DNA of 62,853 nt from Candidatus Pacearchaeota archaeon (GTDB taxonomy: Archaea > Nanobdellota > Nanobdellia > Pacearchaeales > GW2011-AR1). The notes under the pieces are model-generated. The model saw only the letters and a program-made list of their open reading frames with translations. It ran no database searches and was not told the DNA's origin. The translations under genes and the position numbers were made by a program. This document shows, in pieces, positions 28,679-57,134 of the stretch. Every line of letters begins with the position of its first letter. Position 1 is the first letter of the stretch. The DNA lies in assembly GCA_018303845.1 (NCBI GenBank), contig JAGVXH010000002.1, positions 91,532 to 154,384 on the forward strand, written 5' to 3'.

Positions 28679-28801
28679 TCAACACTTGCTTTTGAACATG
28701 GATCTATCCCCGAACTCAGCCAACTTCCCGTCATTCCATCGAGCAGTTGGTCGTAAATACCCAACAACACGACTCCAGACTTCACACTTAGTCCTAGCCA
28801 T
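28679..28801 (-). CDS. separate glycyl-radical domain of anaerobic ribonucleotide reductase
   Basis: This 40-residue ORF reads MARTKCEVWSRVVGYLRPTA followed by RWNDGKLAEFGDRSMFKSKC. It is the C-terminal glycyl-radical segment of class III NrdD, with the radical glycine in RVVGY. It overlaps the end of nrdD by 8 nt in another frame and has its own ribosome binding site, AGAGGTGAT, 4 nt before the ATG. In other organisms this segment is part of NrdD. A small spare-part glycyl-radical protein (YfiD/GrcA) is known for pyruvate formate-lyase, so a separate peptide is biochemically plausible. A frameshift error in the assembly must be excluded. Confidence 0.85.
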   Translation of the reverse strand: MARTKCEVWSRVVGYLRPTARWNDGKLAEFGDRSMFKSKC

Positions 28802-31088
28802 CAATATCACCTCTTGATTTTATTTTAGATTCTTCAACAACTTCAAAACTTTCAACATCATCTTCACTCTCTCTCCTGGTCTCAAGAACCTCGCCTCGCC
28901 CCTTCCCTCTATCATCAAACGCACTAACAATCTTTCTACTGCTCGTCTCCCGCCTAACAACATCTTTCAACTCCATAACCTTAGCCTTAGCATCCGAAGA
29001 AATCTTCCCAGCTAAAGCAATCTCCTCCTCACTAACTTCCAACTTATCTTCCTCGACCAAAACATCTTCTGCCTCCCGCTTCCCCTCAGCAACTTCCAAA
29101 TCGCACTTCGGACAATACTCATGTTCACCCGACAAATACCCATGAATCGGACAAATCGAAAATGTCGGAGAAATAGTAAAATAAGGCAAGTGATAACCAA
29201 ACGCAATTTTCTTCACCATTCTTTTAACAGCGTCAACAGTCATCCTCTCGCCAACAAAAGTATGGAACACAGTCCCACCAGTATACTTACACTGCAACTC
29301 ATCCTGCAAATCAAGCGCCTCGAAAACATCGTCAGTAAAATCAACTGGCAACTGGCTCGAATTAGTATAATAAGGCTTAGCTCCTAAATTCTGCACAGCC
29401 TCTTCATTCGCAACAATAATCCGCCCAAATCTCTTCTTGTCCATCCGGGCAAAACGATATGTCGTCCCTTCTCCTGGCGTCGCCTCCAAATTATAAATGC
29501 TTCCCGTCTCTTCTTGATAGCCGCCAAGCTTATCCCTCATAAAATCCAAAACCCTCAAGGCAAAGACCCGCCCCTTCTCCGTCGTAATATCTTCACCAGG
29601 CATAAAATTCTTCACCGCCTCATTCATCCCAAGCAAACCAATAGTCCCAAAATGATTCTTCCAATACTGCCCGAATCTATCATAAACCGCCCTTAAATAA
29701 AACTTAGAATAAGGATAAAGCCCCATCTCAGTAAACTTCTCAATCGATTTACGCTTAATCTCCAAACTCTCCTTAGACAATTCCATCAGACTCTCAAGCC
29801 GCGCAAAAAAATCATCCTCGCCCGTCGACACATAACCAAGTCGCGCCATATTAATCGTCACAACTCCAATCGAACCAGTCAAAGGATTCGCACCAAAAAG
29901 CCCACCGCCCCTCTTCTTTAATTCAGTATTGTCAATTCGCAACCTACAACACATAGACCGAGAATCCTCTGGCTTCATATCACTATTAACAAAATTAGAA
30001 AAATAGGGAATCCCATATTTCGCCGTCATCTCCCAAATCAAATCATACTCAGGCTTCTCAAAATCAAAATCCTTCGTAATATTATAAGTCGGAATCGGGA
30101 AAGTAAAAACCTGTCCACTCGCGTCCCCTTCAAGCATACACTCCGCAAAAGCCCGATTAATCATATCCATCTCCTTCTGAAAATCCCCATACTTATCCAT
30201 CTTCAACTCACCACCAATCACAACATACTCATTCGCCATATAACTCGGAACCTCCAAATCCATTGTTATATTTGTAAACGGTGTTTGAAACCCAACCCGT
30301 GTCGGCACCGCCATATTAAAAACAAACTCCTGCATCGACTGCTTCACCTGCTTATAATCAAGTCCATCATAACGAATAAACGGAGCAAGCAAAGTATCAA
30401 AATTACTAAACGCCTGCGCCCCCGCCGATTCACCCTGCAAAGTATAAAAGAAATTAACCATCTGCCCGAGTGCCGTCCTCAAATGTTTAGCAGGCTTCGA
30501 CTCAACCTTCCCCTTAACTCCCTTAAACCCAACCATCAACAAATCCTTCAAATCCCATCCAACACAATAAGCTCCAAGCGTCCCCAAATCATGAACATGC
30601 AAATCCCCAGACTCATGAACCTTCCGAACAGCCTCGGGATAAATCCGCCTCATCCAATAATTCGAAACAATTTTCGTAGCTATATAATTATTCAAACCTT
30701 GCAGAGAATAACCCATATTAGAATTCTCCTTAACCATCCAATCATTCAGTCCAATATAATCTTCGACAGCCTCAATCGTATCAAACAAACCTTTAACATC
30801 CCGAAGGTCTTCCCTGGATTTCCTATACAAAATAAAAGCCTTACCAACCTTCGCATGCCCCTCTTCAATTAAAACCTTTTCAATTAAATCCTGAACGTCT
30901 TCAACGTCGGCAATCCCATGCTCTCCATGAATCCTATCCAACTTCTCAACAACCTTATTCGCAATAACCTTAACCCTTTCCCTATCCTTCCCGCCGACAG
31001 CCCGAACCGCCTTCCAAATCGCGTCCTCAATCTTATCAGCCTGGAAAAACACAACACTTCCATCTCTCTTCCTGATCTTTTTTACCAT
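28794..31088 (-). CDS. nrdD: anaerobic ribonucleoside-triphosphate reductase, catalytic part
   Basis: Class III reductase makes deoxynucleotides without oxygen. The 764-residue protein has an ATP-cone regulatory domain (about 1-90: VKKIRKRDGSVVFFQADKIE), then the catalytic barrel with SMCCRLRIDNTEL (active-site Cys region), GSIGVVTINMARLGY, GLLGMNEAVKNF and a late zinc site SICPIHGYLSG...YCPKCD (about 655-677). After this come about 90 hydrophilic residues (VEEDKLEVSEEEIALAGKIS and beyond) in place of the glycyl-radical end, which is encoded separately at 28679-28801. The ATG overlaps the nrdR stop (TAATG). Confidence 0.95.
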   Translation of the reverse strand: MVKKIRKRDGSVVFFQADKIEDAIWKAVRAVGGKDRERVKVIANKVVEKLDRIHGEHGIADVEDVQDLIEKVLIEEGHAKVGKAFILYRKSREDLRDVKGLFDTIEAVEDYIGLNDWMVKENSNMGYSLQGLNNYIATKIVSNYWMRRIYPEAVRKVHESGDLHVHDLGTLGAYCVGWDLKDLLMVGFKGVKGKVESKPAKHLRTALGQMVNFFYTLQGESAGAQAFSNFDTLLAPFIRYDGLDYKQVKQSMQEFVFNMAVPTRVGFQTPFTNITMDLEVPSYMANEYVVIGGELKMDKYGDFQKEMDMINRAFAECMLEGDASGQVFTFPIPTYNITKDFDFEKPEYDLIWEMTAKYGIPYFSNFVNSDMKPEDSRSMCCRLRIDNTELKKRGGGLFGANPLTGSIGVVTINMARLGYVSTGEDDFFARLESLMELSKESLEIKRKSIEKFTEMGLYPYSKFYLRAVYDRFGQYWKNHFGTIGLLGMNEAVKNFMPGEDITTEKGRVFALRVLDFMRDKLGGYQEETGSIYNLEATPGEGTTYRFARMDKKRFGRIIVANEEAVQNLGAKPYYTNSSQLPVDFTDDVFEALDLQDELQCKYTGGTVFHTFVGERMTVDAVKRMVKKIAFGYHLPYFTISPTFSICPIHGYLSGEHEYCPKCDLEVAEGKREAEDVLVEEDKLEVSEEEIALAGKISSDAKAKVMELKDVVRRETSSRKIVSAFDDRGKGRGEVLETRRESEDDVESFEVVEESKIKSRGDIDG

Positions 31089-31528
31089 TATTTCAAATTT
31101 TTTATCTCCTCCCTAAAATCATCAATGTCCGCAAACTCTCTGTAAACCGCCGCAAACCGAATGTAAGCAACCTTGTCCACTTTCTTCAACTTCTTCATCA
31201 CAAGTTCCCCAATCTTCGAACTCAAAACATCCTTATCCTTCGCAGCCCGATAAATCTGCGCCTCAACATCACTAACAATTTCATCAACCTCCGCACTCGA
31301 AAACGGCCTCTTCTGCAAATTCTTGGCAATCCCAGCAGAAAGTTTATCCCGCGAAAACTTCTCCCGCTTCCCATCCTTCTTAACAACATTCAAATCCAGC
31401 TCAACCCGCTCATAAGTCGTAAACCTCTTCTCGCACTTCAAGCACTCACGCCTCCTCCGAGTCTCTGACCCAGAATCTCGCTTATCAGTAACCTTCGTCT
31501 CAAGCGTATTACAGTACGGACATTGCAT
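31088..31528 (-). CDS. nrdR: NrdR transcriptional repressor of ribonucleotide reductase
   Basis: NrdR senses ATP/dATP and represses ribonucleotide reductase genes. Start 31528 (MQCPYCNTLETKVTDKRDSG) gives 146 residues, the usual length; the extra 18 residues of the longest frame are not NrdR-like. Zinc ribbon CPYC...CLKC, RRRRECLKCEKRFTTYERVE, then an ATP-cone (KKDGKREKFSRDKLSAGIAK). NrdR is common in bacteria and found in only some archaea. Cotranscribed with nrdD (TAATG overlap), with palindromes upstream that fit autoregulation. Confidence 0.95.
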   Translation of the reverse strand: MQCPYCNTLETKVTDKRDSGSETRRRRECLKCEKRFTTYERVELDLNVVKKDGKREKFSRDKLSAGIAKNLQKRPFSSAEVDEIVSDVEAQIYRAAKDKDVLSSKIGELVMKKLKKVDKVAYIRFAAVYREFADIDDFREEIKNLK

Positions 31529-31544
31529 TGTTATTTTATAGTGA

Positions 31545-31560
31545 ATACAAGATATTGTAT
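31545..31560. promoter_or_regulatory. NrdR-box-like palindrome
   Basis: ATACAAGATATTGTAT has perfect 6-bp arms (ATACAA/TTGTAT) and resembles the bacterial NrdR box (ACACWATATMTWGT-like). It lies in the nrdR leader, 17-32 nt before the start codon. Confidence 0.7.
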
Positions 31561-31585
31561 CTGGCATCACCAATAACCACAATTT

Positions 31586-31804: not shown

Positions 31805-32626
31805 TCAAACACACCTAACAATCTCACAAAACTTACAAACTTTCCCTCTACAAACCTCTCCACAAACCTCGCACTTCATAATCTCTCTAACATCTAAATT
31901 CTTATCTCTAATTCCTGCACTCCGTGCCATAAAACCATCAACAACATCCCGCTTCGCCTCATCCGTCATATTTTCCCTCATCCATCCCCGCGTATCAACA
32001 CGATAAGTCCCAAGCGCACAAGGACACCGGTCATACAAAATATCAAAATTCTTCTCCTGAGCATATTTCCTGACCTCTCCCTCCGGAACAAAAAACAAAG
32101 GCTTAACTCTCTGAATAAAACCTTCAACCTTGCCATGTCCAGTCGCCGGCCCCATTCCAATCCCAAGCTCGACATTCCCCTTCAAATAATTCATCAAAAC
32201 ATTCTGCGCCTCATCATCCAAATTATGTCCAGTCACAATAACATCCGCTTTCAACTTCCGCGCCCATCGATTCAAAACCCACTTCTTAATAACCCCACAA
32301 ACCGTACACCCAGTCAACCCCTTCTTTTTAGCCAAAACAGCCTTAACAAAACAAATCCCCTGCCCAATCTCTTTCTTCAAATCCACAACAGTCAAAGGAA
32401 CCTCATTCTCCAAACAAAACCTCTCCATATTTCGCCGATGAATCTCACTCCATTCACCCAAATACAAATCAATCATCAACCCTTCAACATTATACCCCAA
32501 CTTCTTCAGTATATATAAGACAGAAGTCGAATCCTTCCCTCCAGACAAAGCCACCACAACCTTATCCGTTTTTTTCATCAAAGAATATTTTTTAATGGTC
32601 CAAACAACTTTCCTTTCAATATCCAT
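31805..32626 (-). CDS. tRNA 2-thiolation enzyme, NcsA/TtuA family, without N-terminal zinc finger
   Basis: These PP-loop ATPases replace a tRNA uridine oxygen by sulfur. The 273-residue protein shows VVALSGGKDSTSVLYIL (PP-loop), GLTGCTVCGVIKKWVLN (catalytic/cluster Cys), VTGHNLDDEAQNVLMNYLKG, DRCPCALGTYR and a C-terminal zinc site CEVCGEVC...CKFC. The start at 32626 (MDIERKVVWTIKKYS) is set by TTTATAAA exactly 21 nt upstream. Family members normally have another CxxC zinc finger before this point; it is absent here. The long frame upstream is only the divergent promoter region. Confidence 0.9.
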   Translation of the reverse strand: MDIERKVVWTIKKYSLMKKTDKVVVALSGGKDSTSVLYILKKLGYNVEGLMIDLYLGEWSEIHRRNMERFCLENEVPLTVVDLKKEIGQGICFVKAVLAKKKGLTGCTVCGVIKKWVLNRWARKLKADVIVTGHNLDDEAQNVLMNYLKGNVELGIGMGPATGHGKVEGFIQRVKPLFFVPEGEVRKYAQEKNFDILYDRCPCALGTYRVDTRGWMRENMTDEAKRDVVDGFMARSAGIRDKNLDVREIMKCEVCGEVCRGKVCKFCEIVRCV

Positions 32627-32676
32627 TAACAGCGATAGCCCAAAACATTTATAAAGAATTGCAATTTCAACAAAAC
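32627..32676. promoter_or_regulatory. symmetric bidirectional promoter with one TATA box
   Basis: The palindromic box TTTATAAA (32648-32655) lies exactly 21 nt from the ATG of the thiolation gene on the left (32626) and exactly 21 nt from the ATG of the DsbA-like gene on the right (32677). One TBP site can therefore serve two leaderless genes. Confidence 0.8.
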
Positions 32677-33684
32677 ATGTCGACAAAAAAAAGTAGCAAA
32701 TTTCTAAAAGCAATTTCACAAAACTACTGGACAATATCAACAATCTTCCTATCTGTTGTAACAATCATATTAGCAGCGGCACTTCTAACAGGCGGAACAA
32801 CAGGAGCAGTATCAGCAGAAGTAGCAGCACAAAACGTTTTAGACTTTGCAAAAGCACAAGGAGCAGACGCAACACTAGTAAGCTCAACAGATGATGGATC
32901 CCTTTACGAAGTCGTTCTATCTATCGAAGGACAAGAAGTACCAGTTTATGTAACAAAAGACGGGAAAACATTAGTCCCTCAACCAATCTCACTAGAAATA
33001 ACAGAAAAAACACCAACAAATTCAGCACCAGAGACAACACCCACTCCTACAAACATTCCAAAATCAAACAAGCCAGTCGTTGAAGCTTTCGTAATGTCAC
33101 ACTGCCCTTATGGAACCCAAATCGAAAAAGGTTTATTGCCAGTAGTTAATGCATTAGGTGACAAAATAGATTTCGAACTAAAATTCGTTTACTACGCAAT
33201 GCACCCAAGCTACGGAGAAGTAGAAGAACAACTTAACCAATACTGTATACAAAAAGAACAAAACGATAAATTCAATGACTATCTAACTTGCTTCCTAGAA
33301 GCAGGAAATGGGGCAGAATGTTTAACCGAAACAAACATCGACAAAACAGCACTAAAAACTTGCACAGATGCAACAGACAAAGAATTCAACGTACGAGCGA
33401 ACCTAGCAGACAAATCTTCATGGTTAAGTGGACAATATCCTAAGTTTGATATCTACAAAGCAGACAATGAAAAATACCAAGTAGGCGGTTCTCCAACTCT
33501 AGTAATCAACGGAGTAAAAGCACAAGTAGGACGAGATTCAATCTCTCTATTAAACGCAATCTGTTCAAGCTTTGAAACAGCGCCAGAAGAATGTAATACT
33601 AAGTTCGAAGCAGCTTCTCCAAGTCCAGGATTCGGCTGGTCAACAACAGAAAACGCTAACAACGCAGCAGCTTGCGGAGCTTAA
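32677..33684 (+). CDS. membrane-anchored DsbA-like thioredoxin-fold protein
   Basis: A 335-residue protein with a signal anchor near 20-45 (STIFLSVVTIILAAALLTGG), a small extracytoplasmic domain (about 45-110), a Thr/Pro-rich linker (TPTNSAPETTPTPTNIPKSN) and a thioredoxin-fold domain beginning VEAFVMSHCPYGTQIEKG. The motif is C-P-Y-G rather than CxxC. Several other cysteines follow (NQYCIQ, LTCFLEAGNGAEC, KTCTD, ICSS, EECN). Likely role: thiol-disulfide chemistry on extracytoplasmic proteins such as the Cys-rich surface proteins here. The start is fixed by the TATA box 21 nt upstream; the ATG at 32659 would precede the transcript. Confidence 0.85.
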   Translation: MSTKKSSKFLKAISQNYWTISTIFLSVVTIILAAALLTGGTTGAVSAEVAAQNVLDFAKAQGADATLVSSTDDGSLYEVVLSIEGQEVPVYVTKDGKTLVPQPISLEITEKTPTNSAPETTPTPTNIPKSNKPVVEAFVMSHCPYGTQIEKGLLPVVNALGDKIDFELKFVYYAMHPSYGEVEEQLNQYCIQKEQNDKFNDYLTCFLEAGNGAECLTETNIDKTALKTCTDATDKEFNVRANLADKSSWLSGQYPKFDIYKADNEKYQVGGSPTLVINGVKAQVGRDSISLLNAICSSFETAPEECNTKFEAASPSPGFGWSTTENANNAAACGA

Positions 33685-50949: not shown

Positions 50950-53900
50950 TCATCTAATATACATATCTTCCTCCGATTTATTAAACCTTATCCTTTTATA
51001 CACATAAACAATAAACCCCACAAAAAACATAACTAAAGTCACAAAAGAAATATAATAAAAGTTTCTCTCAACAAAACCTTCAATCCTATATTTAATCTGT
51101 TCATTGGCGATAATCGCATCCTCACAAGCAGCGCTAACTTCTTCAGCTAGTCTAATGGCCTCAATCTCATCCCCCGCCTCAAACGCCTCACGAGCCCGAC
51201 GAAAAACCTCAGTCAATTCCAAGCACTCAGGGTTATCTGCAATCAACTTCTCCGTAAAAACCAACAACTCCTCAGCCTCACTCTCATTCGTTCTCCTCAA
51301 ATCAATAAAAAAATCCCCCCAGTCCATAAACTTCGGAGAAGTAATGTTAGCAAAAATAGTGGCCTTATATTTTCCGGACCGATCCGTATCCGCCAAAATC
51401 TTCATAGTATAATCCTTCCTTTCCCCAGCCATCAAAGACTCAACATGACTAACACCCAAATCAATCTTGACATCATCAGCAAATTGATTATTATATAAAA
51501 CAGAACTAGACAAATCAATCCCATGCAAATCAATCGCTCCAGTATTTTCCAGTCCAAATGGAATTTCGATATAATCTTCATCACTTATAATTACATCCTC
51601 GGGAACAATAATTCTCAACGAATAAAACTTCAACTTAGTAGAACTGCCACCACCAGATGAAGTAGTAGTCTGGGGCTGGGTAAAGCTAAGCTGAATTCGC
51701 TCTGTCGTGTCTGAAGTAGAATTGTCGTCACCAAGAATAAAAATAGACGCCTCATGCACACTCTTAAGCGTAGTCCCAATCTGAATATTCCATCCACCCG
51801 AATGCGTAACAAAAACATCACCATCACCAGAAGCCTTAGTAAAAGTCACATCCTGCGAATAATAAGGATCGTCAACATCCTCGTCTTCAAAATACCCTTC
51901 AAGCGAAAGTGCGATATTGGTATTATAATCAGCTTGCAAAAGACCAATGTCCGCGACATTTCTCATCGGAGCATTTGAGTGAGTTATATTTAATTTAAAA
52001 CTAAAATTCGAAGCAACCGACCTACTCTGATTTAAACTTAAACCAGAAGCATTAGGATAAACCCTCACGGTCAAATTCTTTTTTATTCCATAACTCTCAT
52101 CTAGAAAGTTAGGCAAAAAACTCCAACGCAAAACGCTCCCATTCCCAAAACCAACTTGCGTTTCTCTCAGGCTCAAATTCCCATAACTACAATTAAGCGT
52201 AGTCCCATTCTCCAACCAACACGACATATTATCAACCCAAAACTGATAAACCAAATCATCCCTAACCGAATGATTAATCGTAAAATTCAAAATACTAGAA
52301 ACATTCTCAATCAAATTAAAAGAAGAATTCGCAGCCGGCAAAAACAAATTAGAAAAACCATAAATAGACAGATTCCATTCCTGCCAATCCGCCATACTAT
52401 CATTATCAACAACACTAATATTATACCTCCACTTCCCACTCAACGACTGGTTAGAACTCATATTAAACAAAACATTCTTTCCCGTAACCGTCAAATTCGG
52501 AGCACCAGCATCAAGTGCCAAAATAAAATAACTCAAATTTAATCCATAATAATCATCCTCATCATCACTACCATTCACACTAAAATTCAAAATATCATGA
52601 ATCGTCAAAGACACATTACTTACAGAAAACAAAATCGGAGGATCCAAATTTTCCGTAACATTCAAATTCCAGGTCCGATTAATTGAATTACCAGCGACAT
52701 CACTAATATTAACAAAAACAACATAATCCCCGACATTCCCGACACTAGGCAAAAAATTCGCAGAATAAGCAGCACTCTTCGCACTTGGATTACCAAATTC
52801 AACAAAAGAAAAATTAAACAAATTAACTCTTCCCCCAGTAGAATTAGTAAATGTCACATTAATGTTCAAAGATTCATTATAATACAAACTTCTCTGCCCA
52901 ACCGGAATCAAAAAATCGTCATCGTCAACAATCAAAGAAAAATTAGCCAATGTCCCCTCCGCAACAATAAAATTAAATCCTTCAATTAAACTACTCTGTG
53001 TCCCGTTATTCCCAGTAAAAGAAAAAACGACAGGGACATCTGCAACGTTAGAAACATTGAAAACAAAACTCCGAGAACTATTCAACTTAGAATCACTTGC
53101 AATAATATTAACCTCATAATATCCCACACCACAATCCGTAGGAGTAAAATTAATAATTCCAGAACTAGAATTAAAATTAGAAGAGTTGAGAGAACAAAAT
53201 TCCGCAGAAACATTTTCATAATAAAAACTGATAGGGTCGTTCTCATCATCCGTTACATTCATACTAACATTATAACTAAAAGCAATCCCTTCAGTTAAAT
53301 TCAAAACAACAGGGCTACCTAAAGAAACATTCCATTCAGGCGCTGACTCATTCAAAATCTCCACAATAAAAATTTTCCAATCCCTATTCCCAGCAGTATC
53401 AACGACACTAACATTAATACTATAATTCCCCTCACCACTTTCCAAAAACTTAGTATGATTAATATTCAAACTAGCAACAGCATAATTTTTAGTGTGGTCC
53501 TCGACGGGAGCAACCACAGAAACCCGAGAAGAATCATTAGTAGAAAAAGTCAAAATCTCTCTCTTAATTCCATAATCCTGAACAAGCAAATCCTCATCAC
53601 TAGCATTAGCATAAATAACTCCATTCTCATAAAGACTAACCGGACTAATCGTAGCCAAAGAAACGTTAGCCTCACTAATATTAACAAAAATCCCAATCCT
53701 CTCAACCTCCAACGTAGACCCATCGCCAACACTAACATTAATCGTCCAATTCCCGACCTGACTTTTGCCAGGCGTTACCGAAACAGGAAGACTATAAAAA
53801 AAATCAGTAGCATTATTTGTCATATTAGCAAAAAACCAACTCTTATTTCCAATATAAGATCTTCCCACCAAATTCGCCAAACTAGAAAAATCCAAACTAC

Positions 53901-54789
53901 CGGTTTCCTCTCGCGCCGTAACATTAATCGTACAATTAAAATTACTCCCCTCAACAATAGAAACCCCGCTACAATTCGACGCATCAATTGAAAGCGACGA
54001 ATAAACATTAAACTTCAAAAGATAAACCGCGCTAGATTTATTACCATTATAACTTGCAGCATCACAATACTGGTGAGGACAAGCCCCATTAAAATCATGC
54101 ACACTAAAATTCGCCCAATAAGTTCCAACATCGTTAAAACCAGAATTATCAAAATCAAAATTAACAGAAGTAGATGTAGCCCCACTTAAATTAAAAATAC
54201 TACAATTCTCCCCAACATTACGGCCAGACCAAGAAGCATGAGTACAATTATTAATAAAAGTCAAATTAAACCCAAGAGGATAATGCGATTCCTCATCAGC
54301 AGCATTAATAGTATAGCTATCACCTCCGCCATAAGAAAAATCATAACTAGAATTCAAATTCAAAAAAACAGGAATATCATTAGTCGCATTAATTTGAAAT
54401 TCAAAACTAGTAATAGTATCGTCCCCCGAAGCATTATTCGCTTGGATTGGAACAATAAAAAAACCAGTCTGATTATCAAAGATAGCATTAATGGTCAAAT
54501 TACCAGTAGTAGAATTACTAATGAATAACCATCCAGCAACATCATCTTCAGTAACTAAATTAGACGTCCCATTACTCCAATTAATATCACTCTGGGTATC
54601 TATAGCAAAAGTAATCTCGGAATTAAAACCAGTAATATTAGCACTTAAATTATGATAATAAATAACATCTTCATTAATATAATAATTAACATTACTCCCA
54701 ACCCATACAACCGCTCCAACCCATACAACCGCTCCAACGAAAACAAGAATAAAAATTAAAACCCCAACAACAAAAAATCTACTCCTCAT
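50950..54789 (-). CDS. giant sequon-rich cell-surface protein
   Basis: The 1279-residue protein has a signal peptide (FFVVGVLIFILVFVGAVVWV) containing a tandem duplicated AVVWVG, a very long extracellular part of Ig/cadherin-like beta repeats (for example SVSDGSTLEV-like and FVFNVSNVADVP segments, with acidic DDxD loops), dozens of N-x-S/T sequons, a Gly/Ser linker SSGGGSSTK, a last beta domain, a helical stalk with four-residue heptads and a C-terminal membrane helix (YISFVTLVMFFVGFIVYVYK). Probably an N-glycosylated adhesin or S-layer-linked protein. The ATG overlaps the abrB stop codon; GGAGGTGA precedes. Confidence 0.85.
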   Translation of the reverse strand: MRSRFFVVGVLIFILVFVGAVVWVGAVVWVGSNVNYYINEDVIYYHNLSANITGFNSEITFAIDTQSDINWSNGTSNLVTEDDVAGWLFISNSTTGNLTINAIFDNQTGFFIVPIQANNASGDDTITSFEFQINATNDIPVFLNLNSSYDFSYGGGDSYTINAADEESHYPLGFNLTFINNCTHASWSGRNVGENCSIFNLSGATSTSVNFDFDNSGFNDVGTYWANFSVHDFNGACPHQYCDAASYNGNKSSAVYLLKFNVYSSLSIDASNCSGVSIVEGSNFNCTINVTAREETGSLDFSSLANLVGRSYIGNKSWFFANMTNNATDFFYSLPVSVTPGKSQVGNWTINVSVGDGSTLEVERIGIFVNISEANVSLATISPVSLYENGVIYANASDEDLLVQDYGIKREILTFSTNDSSRVSVVAPVEDHTKNYAVASLNINHTKFLESGEGNYSINVSVVDTAGNRDWKIFIVEILNESAPEWNVSLGSPVVLNLTEGIAFSYNVSMNVTDDENDPISFYYENVSAEFCSLNSSNFNSSSGIINFTPTDCGVGYYEVNIIASDSKLNSSRSFVFNVSNVADVPVVFSFTGNNGTQSSLIEGFNFIVAEGTLANFSLIVDDDDFLIPVGQRSLYYNESLNINVTFTNSTGGRVNLFNFSFVEFGNPSAKSAAYSANFLPSVGNVGDYVVFVNISDVAGNSINRTWNLNVTENLDPPILFSVSNVSLTIHDILNFSVNGSDDEDDYYGLNLSYFILALDAGAPNLTVTGKNVLFNMSSNQSLSGKWRYNISVVDNDSMADWQEWNLSIYGFSNLFLPAANSSFNLIENVSSILNFTINHSVRDDLVYQFWVDNMSCWLENGTTLNCSYGNLSLRETQVGFGNGSVLRWSFLPNFLDESYGIKKNLTVRVYPNASGLSLNQSRSVASNFSFKLNITHSNAPMRNVADIGLLQADYNTNIALSLEGYFEDEDVDDPYYSQDVTFTKASGDGDVFVTHSGGWNIQIGTTLKSVHEASIFILGDDNSTSDTTERIQLSFTQPQTTTSSGGGSSTKLKFYSLRIIVPEDVIISDEDYIEIPFGLENTGAIDLHGIDLSSSVLYNNQFADDVKIDLGVSHVESLMAGERKDYTMKILADTDRSGKYKATIFANITSPKFMDWGDFFIDLRRTNESEAEELLVFTEKLIADNPECLELTEVFRRAREAFEAGDEIEAIRLAEEVSAACEDAIIANEQIKYRIEGFVERNFYYISFVTLVMFFVGFIVYVYKRIRFNKSEEDMYIR

Positions 54790-55169: not shown

Positions 55170-57134
55170 TTATCTCTTCCAAGACAAAAACAATTTCAAC
55201 AAAACTAATAAAATTATTATAATTAAAATAATAGCGATTAAAGTCAAAACAGAACTAATCATAACAAACGGAACTTCAGGCTCGCACATAAACGGACAAG
55301 GCCCGCCACAATCAACGTCTTCTTCCCCCTGATTTTGCTTGCCATCCGAACAAGTTGCACAAGCACTACAAGGACCGCCACAATCAACCAGCAACTCGCA
55401 CGCCCCATCATGACAATTTGTCACTCCATCAAAACATCCAGGATTCTCCGTAAAATAACAAAACCTTTTCTCATAAGGCCTAGCCACAAGCGGTTTAACT
55501 CGACTACAATTATTCAAATCATAACAACTCGTAATCTGAAAACCACAAAATCTTTCATCTTCTTCCTTATTCTGGAAACACGATTCCTTTGCAACAGAAT
55601 AATCCTCTAAAGAAAGAATCTCGGACACAAAAGACCTCTCCACATTCTGACAAACTTTCCAATCTTCACAAAACCAATTTTCAACACAAGACTCACCTCC
55701 ACCACCTCCACCACCGCCGCCAGAAGACGGCAAAGAACATGCAACTTCATTCACACTAACAGACCAACTTTGCGAATCATTAAGCAATCCATCGCTCGTA
55801 ACTATCCTAACACTATGCGCGCCAGAAACCTCGCACCCAAAATTAGAAACAAAACTATCAGTAGAAACATTTTCATTATGCTCTTTCAAAACACCATCAA
55901 CATACCAATCAATATCGGGAATCGTCCCATCTGCATCATAGACTCCAGCAGAATATCCAACATTTAAAGTCCCATTAATCTCAAATACACTGCTCGTCGG
56001 ACTAAAATTCAAAATTTCAGGAGGCCTATTCTGATCTGTCACAGTCAAACTAAAATTATCACAAACAATTTCCGAATCCCCATCTCGAGGAGAACAAAGA
56101 CTAATATTCTGATGAACAAAATCCAAAGCATTATCTTCAACACAAATCTGCAAACTATAAACCCGACCTTCATGCCCTACGACAGGGCTATAATTCATTA
56201 CACCATCATTTAACCCGACACCAAACAAATTTTCATTCCCACTCCAAGTCAAATTAAATTCAAAACTTCCATCCCCCGTAACGCCATCCTCAATATCAGA
56301 AACATTCACAATAAAATAAAACGAAGAATTCTCCCCCATTAGATAAACAGTCTGCGCTCCGATATTCTCCAAAATAGGCACATTGTTTATTTCAATAACT
56401 TCCACGTCCACATCACGACTATCAATCGCGTCCCAAGGATCCACAGCAGAAACACTCTCAACATAACTCCCAACATCATCCTTATCTAAAACCCCAGAAA
56501 CAATATCAAAAAAACTAAAAGTTCCATTTCTCTCATACAAACTCAAATAAAACGGATTCTTCGGAGAAATATCCCCAACCAAATCCTCTTCATCAATATC
56601 TGTAACATTAAACCTATAATCCAAACTCTCCCCTTCACAAACAAAAATAGGTTCCGTTATATTCCCAATTAAAGGAGCCGAATTGTTCACATCAACATAA
56701 AAAACAACACTAGAATTATACCATTCTCCCCCATCAGATAAAGCAAATACCGTCAACAAATTCTCCCATCTCACAGCAGTAATAGAGCTATTCGGACTGA
56801 AAAAAGTATCATTCTCAATATAAACCGAATGCCTCAAATCATAAAGCGAATACTTCCAACCATTCATAGGCTCAAGTGCAAAATCGGCAGAAACATTCAA
56901 TGGAAGAATATATGCATCCCATTTACTAAAATTATAACTCCTATTTTCTGGAGAATAAATATAAACATTATACGTCCCCAAAACAAAAATCTGAACTATC
57001 CCAGTATCATTAACAACATGCCCAGTAATCGCAACAGGCAAAAAGGGCACCCCCATAAAATTGACAAAAACAAAATTCAAAAATATAAATAAAAGCAATG
57101 TTGCAGCAAGCGTCACAATCACCTTCTTCTCCAT
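55170..57134 (-). CDS. secreted Cys-rich, cadherin-like surface protein with C-terminal anchor
   Basis: Start 57134 (MEKKVIVTLAATLLLFIFLN) is used since TTTATATT lies about 21 nt upstream, overlapping the stop of the next gene. The 654 residues comprise a signal anchor, cadherin/Ig-like repeats (about 100-460, with DIDEEDLVGD and SDIEDGV loops), a Gly-rich hinge SSGGGGGGGGG, a Cys-rich region (CVENWFCEDWKVCQ, GCFDGVTNCHDGACELLVDC, then GEEDVDCGGPCPFMCEPE) and a C-terminal helix. Cys modules match those of the 41123 protein. Extracellular; many sequons. Confidence 0.83.
   Translation of the reverse strand: MEKKVIVTLAATLLLFIFLNFVFVNFMGVPFLPVAITGHVVNDTGIVQIFVLGTYNVYIYSPENRSYNFSKWDAYILPLNVSADFALEPMNGWKYSLYDLRHSVYIENDTFFSPNSSITAVRWENLLTVFALSDGGEWYNSSVVFYVDVNNSAPLIGNITEPIFVCEGESLDYRFNVTDIDEEDLVGDISPKNPFYLSLYERNGTFSFFDIVSGVLDKDDVGSYVESVSAVDPWDAIDSRDVDVEVIEINNVPILENIGAQTVYLMGENSSFYFIVNVSDIEDGVTGDGSFEFNLTWSGNENLFGVGLNDGVMNYSPVVGHEGRVYSLQICVEDNALDFVHQNISLCSPRDGDSEIVCDNFSLTVTDQNRPPEILNFSPTSSVFEINGTLNVGYSAGVYDADGTIPDIDWYVDGVLKEHNENVSTDSFVSNFGCEVSGAHSVRIVTSDGLLNDSQSWSVSVNEVACSLPSSGGGGGGGGGESCVENWFCEDWKVCQNVERSFVSEILSLEDYSVAKESCFQNKEEDERFCGFQITSCYDLNNCSRVKPLVARPYEKRFCYFTENPGCFDGVTNCHDGACELLVDCGGPCSACATCSDGKQNQGEEDVDCGGPCPFMCEPEVPFVMISSVLTLIAIILIIIILLVLLKLFLSWKR

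Follow-up and report, generated by a model that had tools for sequence, protein, structure and literature searches.

One palindromic TATA box between two divergent, predicted leaderless genes in a DPANN archaeon

Main finding

The 50-bp spacer between two divergent genes of a Candidatus Pacearchaeota archaeon, one for a TtuA/Ncs6-like PP-loop ATPase and one for a DsbA-like protein, contains a single palindromic TATA box, TTTATAAA, placed exactly 21 nt from the start codon on either side. The spacer is very probably a bidirectional archaeal core promoter of the BRE-TATA-BRE type, serving two genes that are both predicted to be leaderless. The window (the whole stretch of DNA analysed, 62,853 nt) comes from an assembly of 1.09 Mb in ten contigs; the organism belongs to the DPANN archaea. 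Read directly, the site runs from 32624 to 32679 in the order CAT (32624-32626), 21 nt (32627-32647), TTTATAAA (32648-32655), 21 nt (32656-32676), ATG (32677-32679), where the CAT is the ATG of the minus-strand TtuA-like gene and the ATG opens the plus-strand DsbA-like gene. The arrangement given in the earlier note, ATG, 21 nt, box, 21 nt, ATG, is thus exact to the base. Its description as perfectly symmetric holds for TTTATAAA and for both 21-nt distances, but not for the flanking BREs, which score 4.35 and -0.17. The features of the site are:

31805-32626, minus strand: TtuA/Ncs6-like tRNA 2-thiolation PP-loop ATPase gene, start codon at 32626, predicted leaderless (family and PDB matches; conserved start)
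32627-32676, no strand: entire intergenic spacer, 50 bp (21 + 8 + 21), read directly and aligned without gaps in 8 genomes of 2 genera
32641-32645, plus strand: BRE of the DsbA-like gene, CAAAA followed by 2 nt and the box; strong, BRE score 4.35
32648-32655, no strand: palindromic TATA box TTTATAAA, common to both genes; the sole box-like element correctly spaced for either gene; unchanged in 8 relatives that share the box
32658-32662, minus strand: BRE position of the TtuA-like gene, GCAAT followed by TC and the box; weak, with T rather than A at -32, BRE score -0.17
32677-33684, plus strand: membrane-anchored DsbA-like thiol oxidoreductase gene, predicted leaderless (CPYG and SPT cis-Pro motif; fold search)

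The two genes

The TtuA-like reading frame encodes 273 aa, a PP-loop ATPase related to TtuA/Ncs6, which matches Pfam ATP_bind_3 (1e-13) and, in the PDB, TtuA PH0300 (2e-44). The NCBIfam equivalog for TtuA (tRNA-m5U54 2-sulfurtransferase) is matched at 1e-55 with 188.9 bits, under its cut-off of 450; the protein is therefore named TtuA/Ncs6-like only. It is without the N-terminal ~29 residues of PH0300 and keeps the C-terminal CxxC pair. Its minus-strand start is an invariant Met across 8 aligned sequences. At two related loci, L050 (genome G014) and L053 (G001), the shared-box ATG opens a small reading frame of 25 or 35 codons, in both cases starting ATGATAANTAAATTR, and the aligned TtuA start lies 86 or 110 nt further on in a different frame; this small frame would reflect an insertion immediately following the start codon, or else be a leaderless upstream ORF.

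The DsbA-like reading frame encodes a membrane-anchored protein of 335 aa, for which neither Pfam nor NCBIfam gives a match at threshold, and which matches GILT and Thioredoxin_2 weakly. Among 10 homologues the motif CPYG is invariant and GSPT nearly so. A Foldseek search with the structural model (mean pLDDT 72) returns top matches that are all of DsbA type, the best PDB matches being DsbA proteins (E 5e-6); the product is thus modelled with a DsbA-type thioredoxin fold carrying CxxC and cis-Pro.

Elsewhere in the window, a gene for an NrdR-family regulator (31088-31567, minus strand; 173.5 bits, cut-off 124.65) immediately precedes a gene for an anaerobic ribonucleotide reductase (28794-31088, minus strand); NrdR is known mainly from bacteria. 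Two further genes on the minus strand, at 50950-54789 and 55170-57134, encode large proteins of 1279 and 654 aa that find no Pfam match at E 1e-10.

A spacing rule followed from both sides

Spacing was analysed in the window together with 400 kb of other stretches of this genome, 463 kb in all, in which a simple hexamer gene caller places 486 genes. Here 21 nt is the modal distance from TTTATAAA to a start codon, far above every other distance; counting raw ATGs, an ATG stands exactly 21 nt away on 34 of the 146 flanks of its 73 sites, the background being 1.4% per distance. The promoters of 98 genes of this genome yield the consensus VRAWA-NN-TTTATAAA-N21-ATG, in which the BRE occupies -36 to -32 from the start codon (that is, 3-7 nt outside the box), two free bases follow, the box occupies -29 to -22, and 21 nt remain; A stands at -32 in 83%, and the bases before the start are rich in T, with T at -1. 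Leaderless transcription has just this layout. With a box-to-ATG distance equal to the genome norm on both sides, the proposal that both genes are leaderless holds as a prediction, and since 21 nt is the commonest box-to-start gap of the genome, both genes follow the same rule from opposite sides of one box. The double 21 at this locus is thus the product of a symmetric box, leaderless genes and divergent neighbours.

It is next to inconceivable that the symmetry is a coincidence, an AT-rich 8-mer having fallen by accident halfway between starts that have nothing to do with each other. The AT-richness of the genome (GC 0.36-0.39) and its 143 copies of TTTATAAA would favor such an accident, but two-sided sites number 3 in the 463 kb, where the background predicts 0.014; the genus has 62 exact patterns and none with 26-nt gaps, and the 50-bp spacer is conserved in relatives. 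Chance symmetry is rejected by these spacing controls (background count, reversed pattern, 26-nt gaps). Equally, if flanks carry leaderless starts independently of each other, 3.96 two-sided sites are expected in the 463 kb, so that an excess, which was sought, is absent there and nothing indicates that two-sidedness itself is selected. Of the 53 divergent pairs sampled, two are separated by 50 bp with a single TTTATAAA at the center (this pair, and a LemA-like gene with a gene for a small membrane protein), and one by 51 bp with a single GTTTAAAT-type box; spacers of at least 62 bp mostly contain two boxes.

One box, two unequal flanks

The 150 nt upstream of each start were scanned for BRE and TATA box together. 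The shared box is the top match for both genes. Its score for the DsbA-like gene, 13.9, exceeds the 95th percentile of real promoters, and that for the TtuA-like gene, 9.9, compares with a median of 10.5 for such promoters; the matrix was trained on 98 promoters that include these two (2/98). Neither start has another promoter candidate with the right spacing within these 150 nt, the next-best candidate scoring 3.2 (5th percentile of the training set, 2.9) at a wrong spacing. This bears out the claim of one palindromic box for both genes, to which independent TATA boxes for either gene would have been the counter-evidence.

The flanks differ. The BRE on the DsbA side, CAAAA, scores 4.35, against a median of 2.6 for 98 promoters in this genome; that on the TtuA side, GCAAT, scores -0.17, between the 5th and 25th percentiles of real promoters (random median -2.78), and has at -32 a T that is present in just 6% of this genome's promoters, so that promoter activity towards the TtuA-like gene may be very low or depend on an activator. 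The promoter is thus predicted to be functionally asymmetric, with an excellent BRE on the DsbA side and a weak one on the TtuA side. The earlier note further expected the BRE on each side to overlap the transcribed region of the opposite gene; this is not borne out, as each BRE (32641-32645 or 32658-32662) lies upstream of the other gene, at 15-19 nt from its ATG, and would be untranscribed if the mRNAs are leaderless.

Recurrence in genus, family and phylum

The pattern CAT-21-TTTATAAA-21-ATG occurs 62 times in the genus, in all of its 16 genomes (16/16), where the reversed pattern and the pattern with both gaps set to 26 nt each occur 0 times. It is found in 52 of the 56 genomes of a family sample covering 55 genera, and elsewhere in the phylum in 22 of 99 sampled genomes (this genome excluded), mostly in one copy each. 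Reading frames of at least 50 aa lie on both sides in 17 of the 22 distinct sites examined. Other pairs with a shared box are a LemA-like gene with one for a small membrane protein and a threonyl-tRNA synthetase-like gene with one for a small protein; two zinc-ribbon proteins and one rhodanese-like protein are also encoded at such sites, all these names being read from the translations. The LemA-like pair with its 21-TTTATAAA-21 spacer is seen in different species of the genus (G000:C6:33644-33699, equivalent to L146:13644-13699, and L041). Over the 62 sites, the weaker flank has a BRE signal above random (p = 3e-13) and below that of a typical promoter (p = 6e-12), both p-values being optimistic since the sites are related and kinship is uncorrected. 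As the exact pattern recurs in the genus and the family, the shared site is very probably a recurrent bidirectional core promoter in the family.

One-box and two-box relatives

The 50-bp spacer itself is conserved as the earlier note supposed it might be: it aligns without gaps in 8 genomes of 2 genera (G000, G015, G008, G014, G001, G011 and G004, with G069 from the other genus), and the box and both ATGs are invariant. Four relatives (G003, G005, G012 and the L051 record) retain the box with its 21-nt distance to the DsbA-like gene, and in them the TtuA-like gene, which starts 56-77 nt from this first box, has a CTTAAAAA/TTTAAAAA-type box of its own at the right distance; in G009 and G021 the two genes are apart. 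Across these relatives, the box is the predicted promoter of the DsbA-like gene in the genus, kept wherever the two genes adjoin, and the TtuA-like gene is predicted to use its back side in several lineages and its own box in others. The TtuA-facing BRE scores -2.24 to 0.81 in the 8 one-box genomes and -3.62 to -2.43 in the 4 two-box genomes, every one-box value exceeding every two-box value, as expected if the flank is kept only where it is used, although the independent events behind this comparison are few.

On the Rpo2 tree, in which the position of G007 is an artefact of joined fragments, at least 3 changes separate the one-box state from the rest; the TtuA protein tree is too poorly resolved to order the promoter changes, and the Rpo2 tree is the better of the two. 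The spacer of G000 ends in GTTA immediately before the ATG and resembles GTGTTAACC of the two-box species, which suggests that a deletion may have fused two promoters into one; AGTTAC-like ends common to G014, G015 and G003 could argue the opposite way.

Proposed mechanism and alternatives

In the mechanism that we favor, TBP would bind the palindromic TTTATAAA and TFB would bind either flank, so setting the direction; RNA polymerase would start ~22 nt from the box, at the A of the ATG or 1-2 bases from it. We thus infer transcription from this locus in both directions, yielding two leaderless mRNAs. Their predicted starts lie 51 bp apart if each is at the A of its ATG, in agreement with the distance of some 50 bp that had been proposed and with the ~50 bp of Pyrococcus furiosus (PMC6640164). 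Since the 50 bp would be needed by both initiation complexes and should have room for one at a time, the two would be mutually exclusive on the spacer; the DsbA-like direction would be the stronger and the TtuA-like the weaker, as a good BRE is present on the DsbA side alone. That both directions compete for one TBP site, as the earlier note held, is a fair inference. In bidirectional promoters of Escherichia coli, competition arises only with strong activation of one direction (PMC12825309), so that competition here may be physically true and yet matter little at the basal level.

The box might instead be a one-way promoter of the DsbA-like gene, the TtuA-like gene being transcribed only when the box fires backwards, weakly and spuriously, or from a promoter that escaped recognition farther upstream, within the DsbA-like gene. 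The unequal BREs fit such a reading, as do the retention of the box in relatives whose TtuA-like gene has its own and the opinion that back-firing in P. furiosus mostly makes non-functional antisense RNA (PMC6640164). It is nevertheless unlikely, given that the distance to the TtuA-like start is exactly 21 nt without gaps in 8 genomes of 2 genera, that the best rival candidate within 150 nt (3.2) is wrongly spaced, and that the combined score in the TtuA direction (9.9) is near the genome's promoter median (10.5).

A stronger claim, which adds to a shared promoter rather than replacing it, is that the TBP site is deliberately shared as an evolved regulatory switch, by which the thiol oxidoreductase and the tRNA thiolase would be expressed in mutual exclusion or in balance. 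The persistence of the gene pair and its 50-bp spacer in two genera is compatible with a switch, and E. coli bidirectional promoters do compete once one direction is strongly activated, but at basal activity, which is too low, they do not (PMC12825309); relatives freely separate the two promoters or the two genes, unrelated gene pairs have the same architecture, and two-sided boxes are not in excess, all of which makes a switch quite improbable. More speculatively, and with rather little expectation on our part, shared palindromic boxes could represent a systematic, partly selected pairing of leaderless genes in this DPANN family, in which exclusive initiation would couple the genes, BRE strengths would set their ratio, and promoters would repeatedly fuse and split.

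Comparison with known systems

A literature search for promoter or leaderless studies in DPANN found nothing direct. In the leaderless promoters of Haloferax volcanii, too, the start codon lies at a fixed distance from TATA box and BRE, and there is no leader (PMC4983044); the words 'bidirectional' and 'divergent' are both absent from that paper. Divergent promoters of bacteria and archaea (Warman et al. 2021, Nat Microbiol 6:746), as they are presented in PMC10268837 and PMC12825309, likewise fire both ways through symmetry of core elements; in the bacterial cases, according to the same accounts, a -10 element is shared and the starts are usually 18 bp apart, whereas here the element is an archaeal TATA box and the predicted distance is 51 bp.

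The nearest parallel is P. furiosus (all following details: PMC6640164), in which bidirectional transcription from one TATA box in a BRE-TATA-BRE arrangement has been mapped, with starts ~50 bp apart, and in which two-way firing has been reproduced in vitro at PF1918, where 49 bp separate the starts; the proposal there is that TBP binds symmetrically and TFB gives the direction. Common to both systems are one near-symmetric TATA box, BREs on both flanks of which the second, here a candidate BRE, is weaker, and starts ~50 bp apart (predicted here). They differ in that the second product in P. furiosus is mostly presumed to be non-functional antisense RNA, whereas two leaderless mRNAs of conserved protein genes are predicted here; in that 5' UTRs there are short (median 13 nt), whereas here both start codons are locked at 21 nt; and in that head-to-head gene pairs could not be resolved in that study. 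With an identical box and identical spacings on both sides, a bias could be set only by the BRE flanks and the initiation region, which makes the present spacer a minimal symmetric test case for the archaeal choice of transcription direction; its recurrence across the family provides many further examples, and the 21-8-21 pattern can fix both start codons together in genome annotation. The mechanism is already known from P. furiosus, and this locus appears to fit it; added here are the recurrence throughout the genus and the family and a natural comparison between relatives in which this gene pair has one box and relatives in which it has two.
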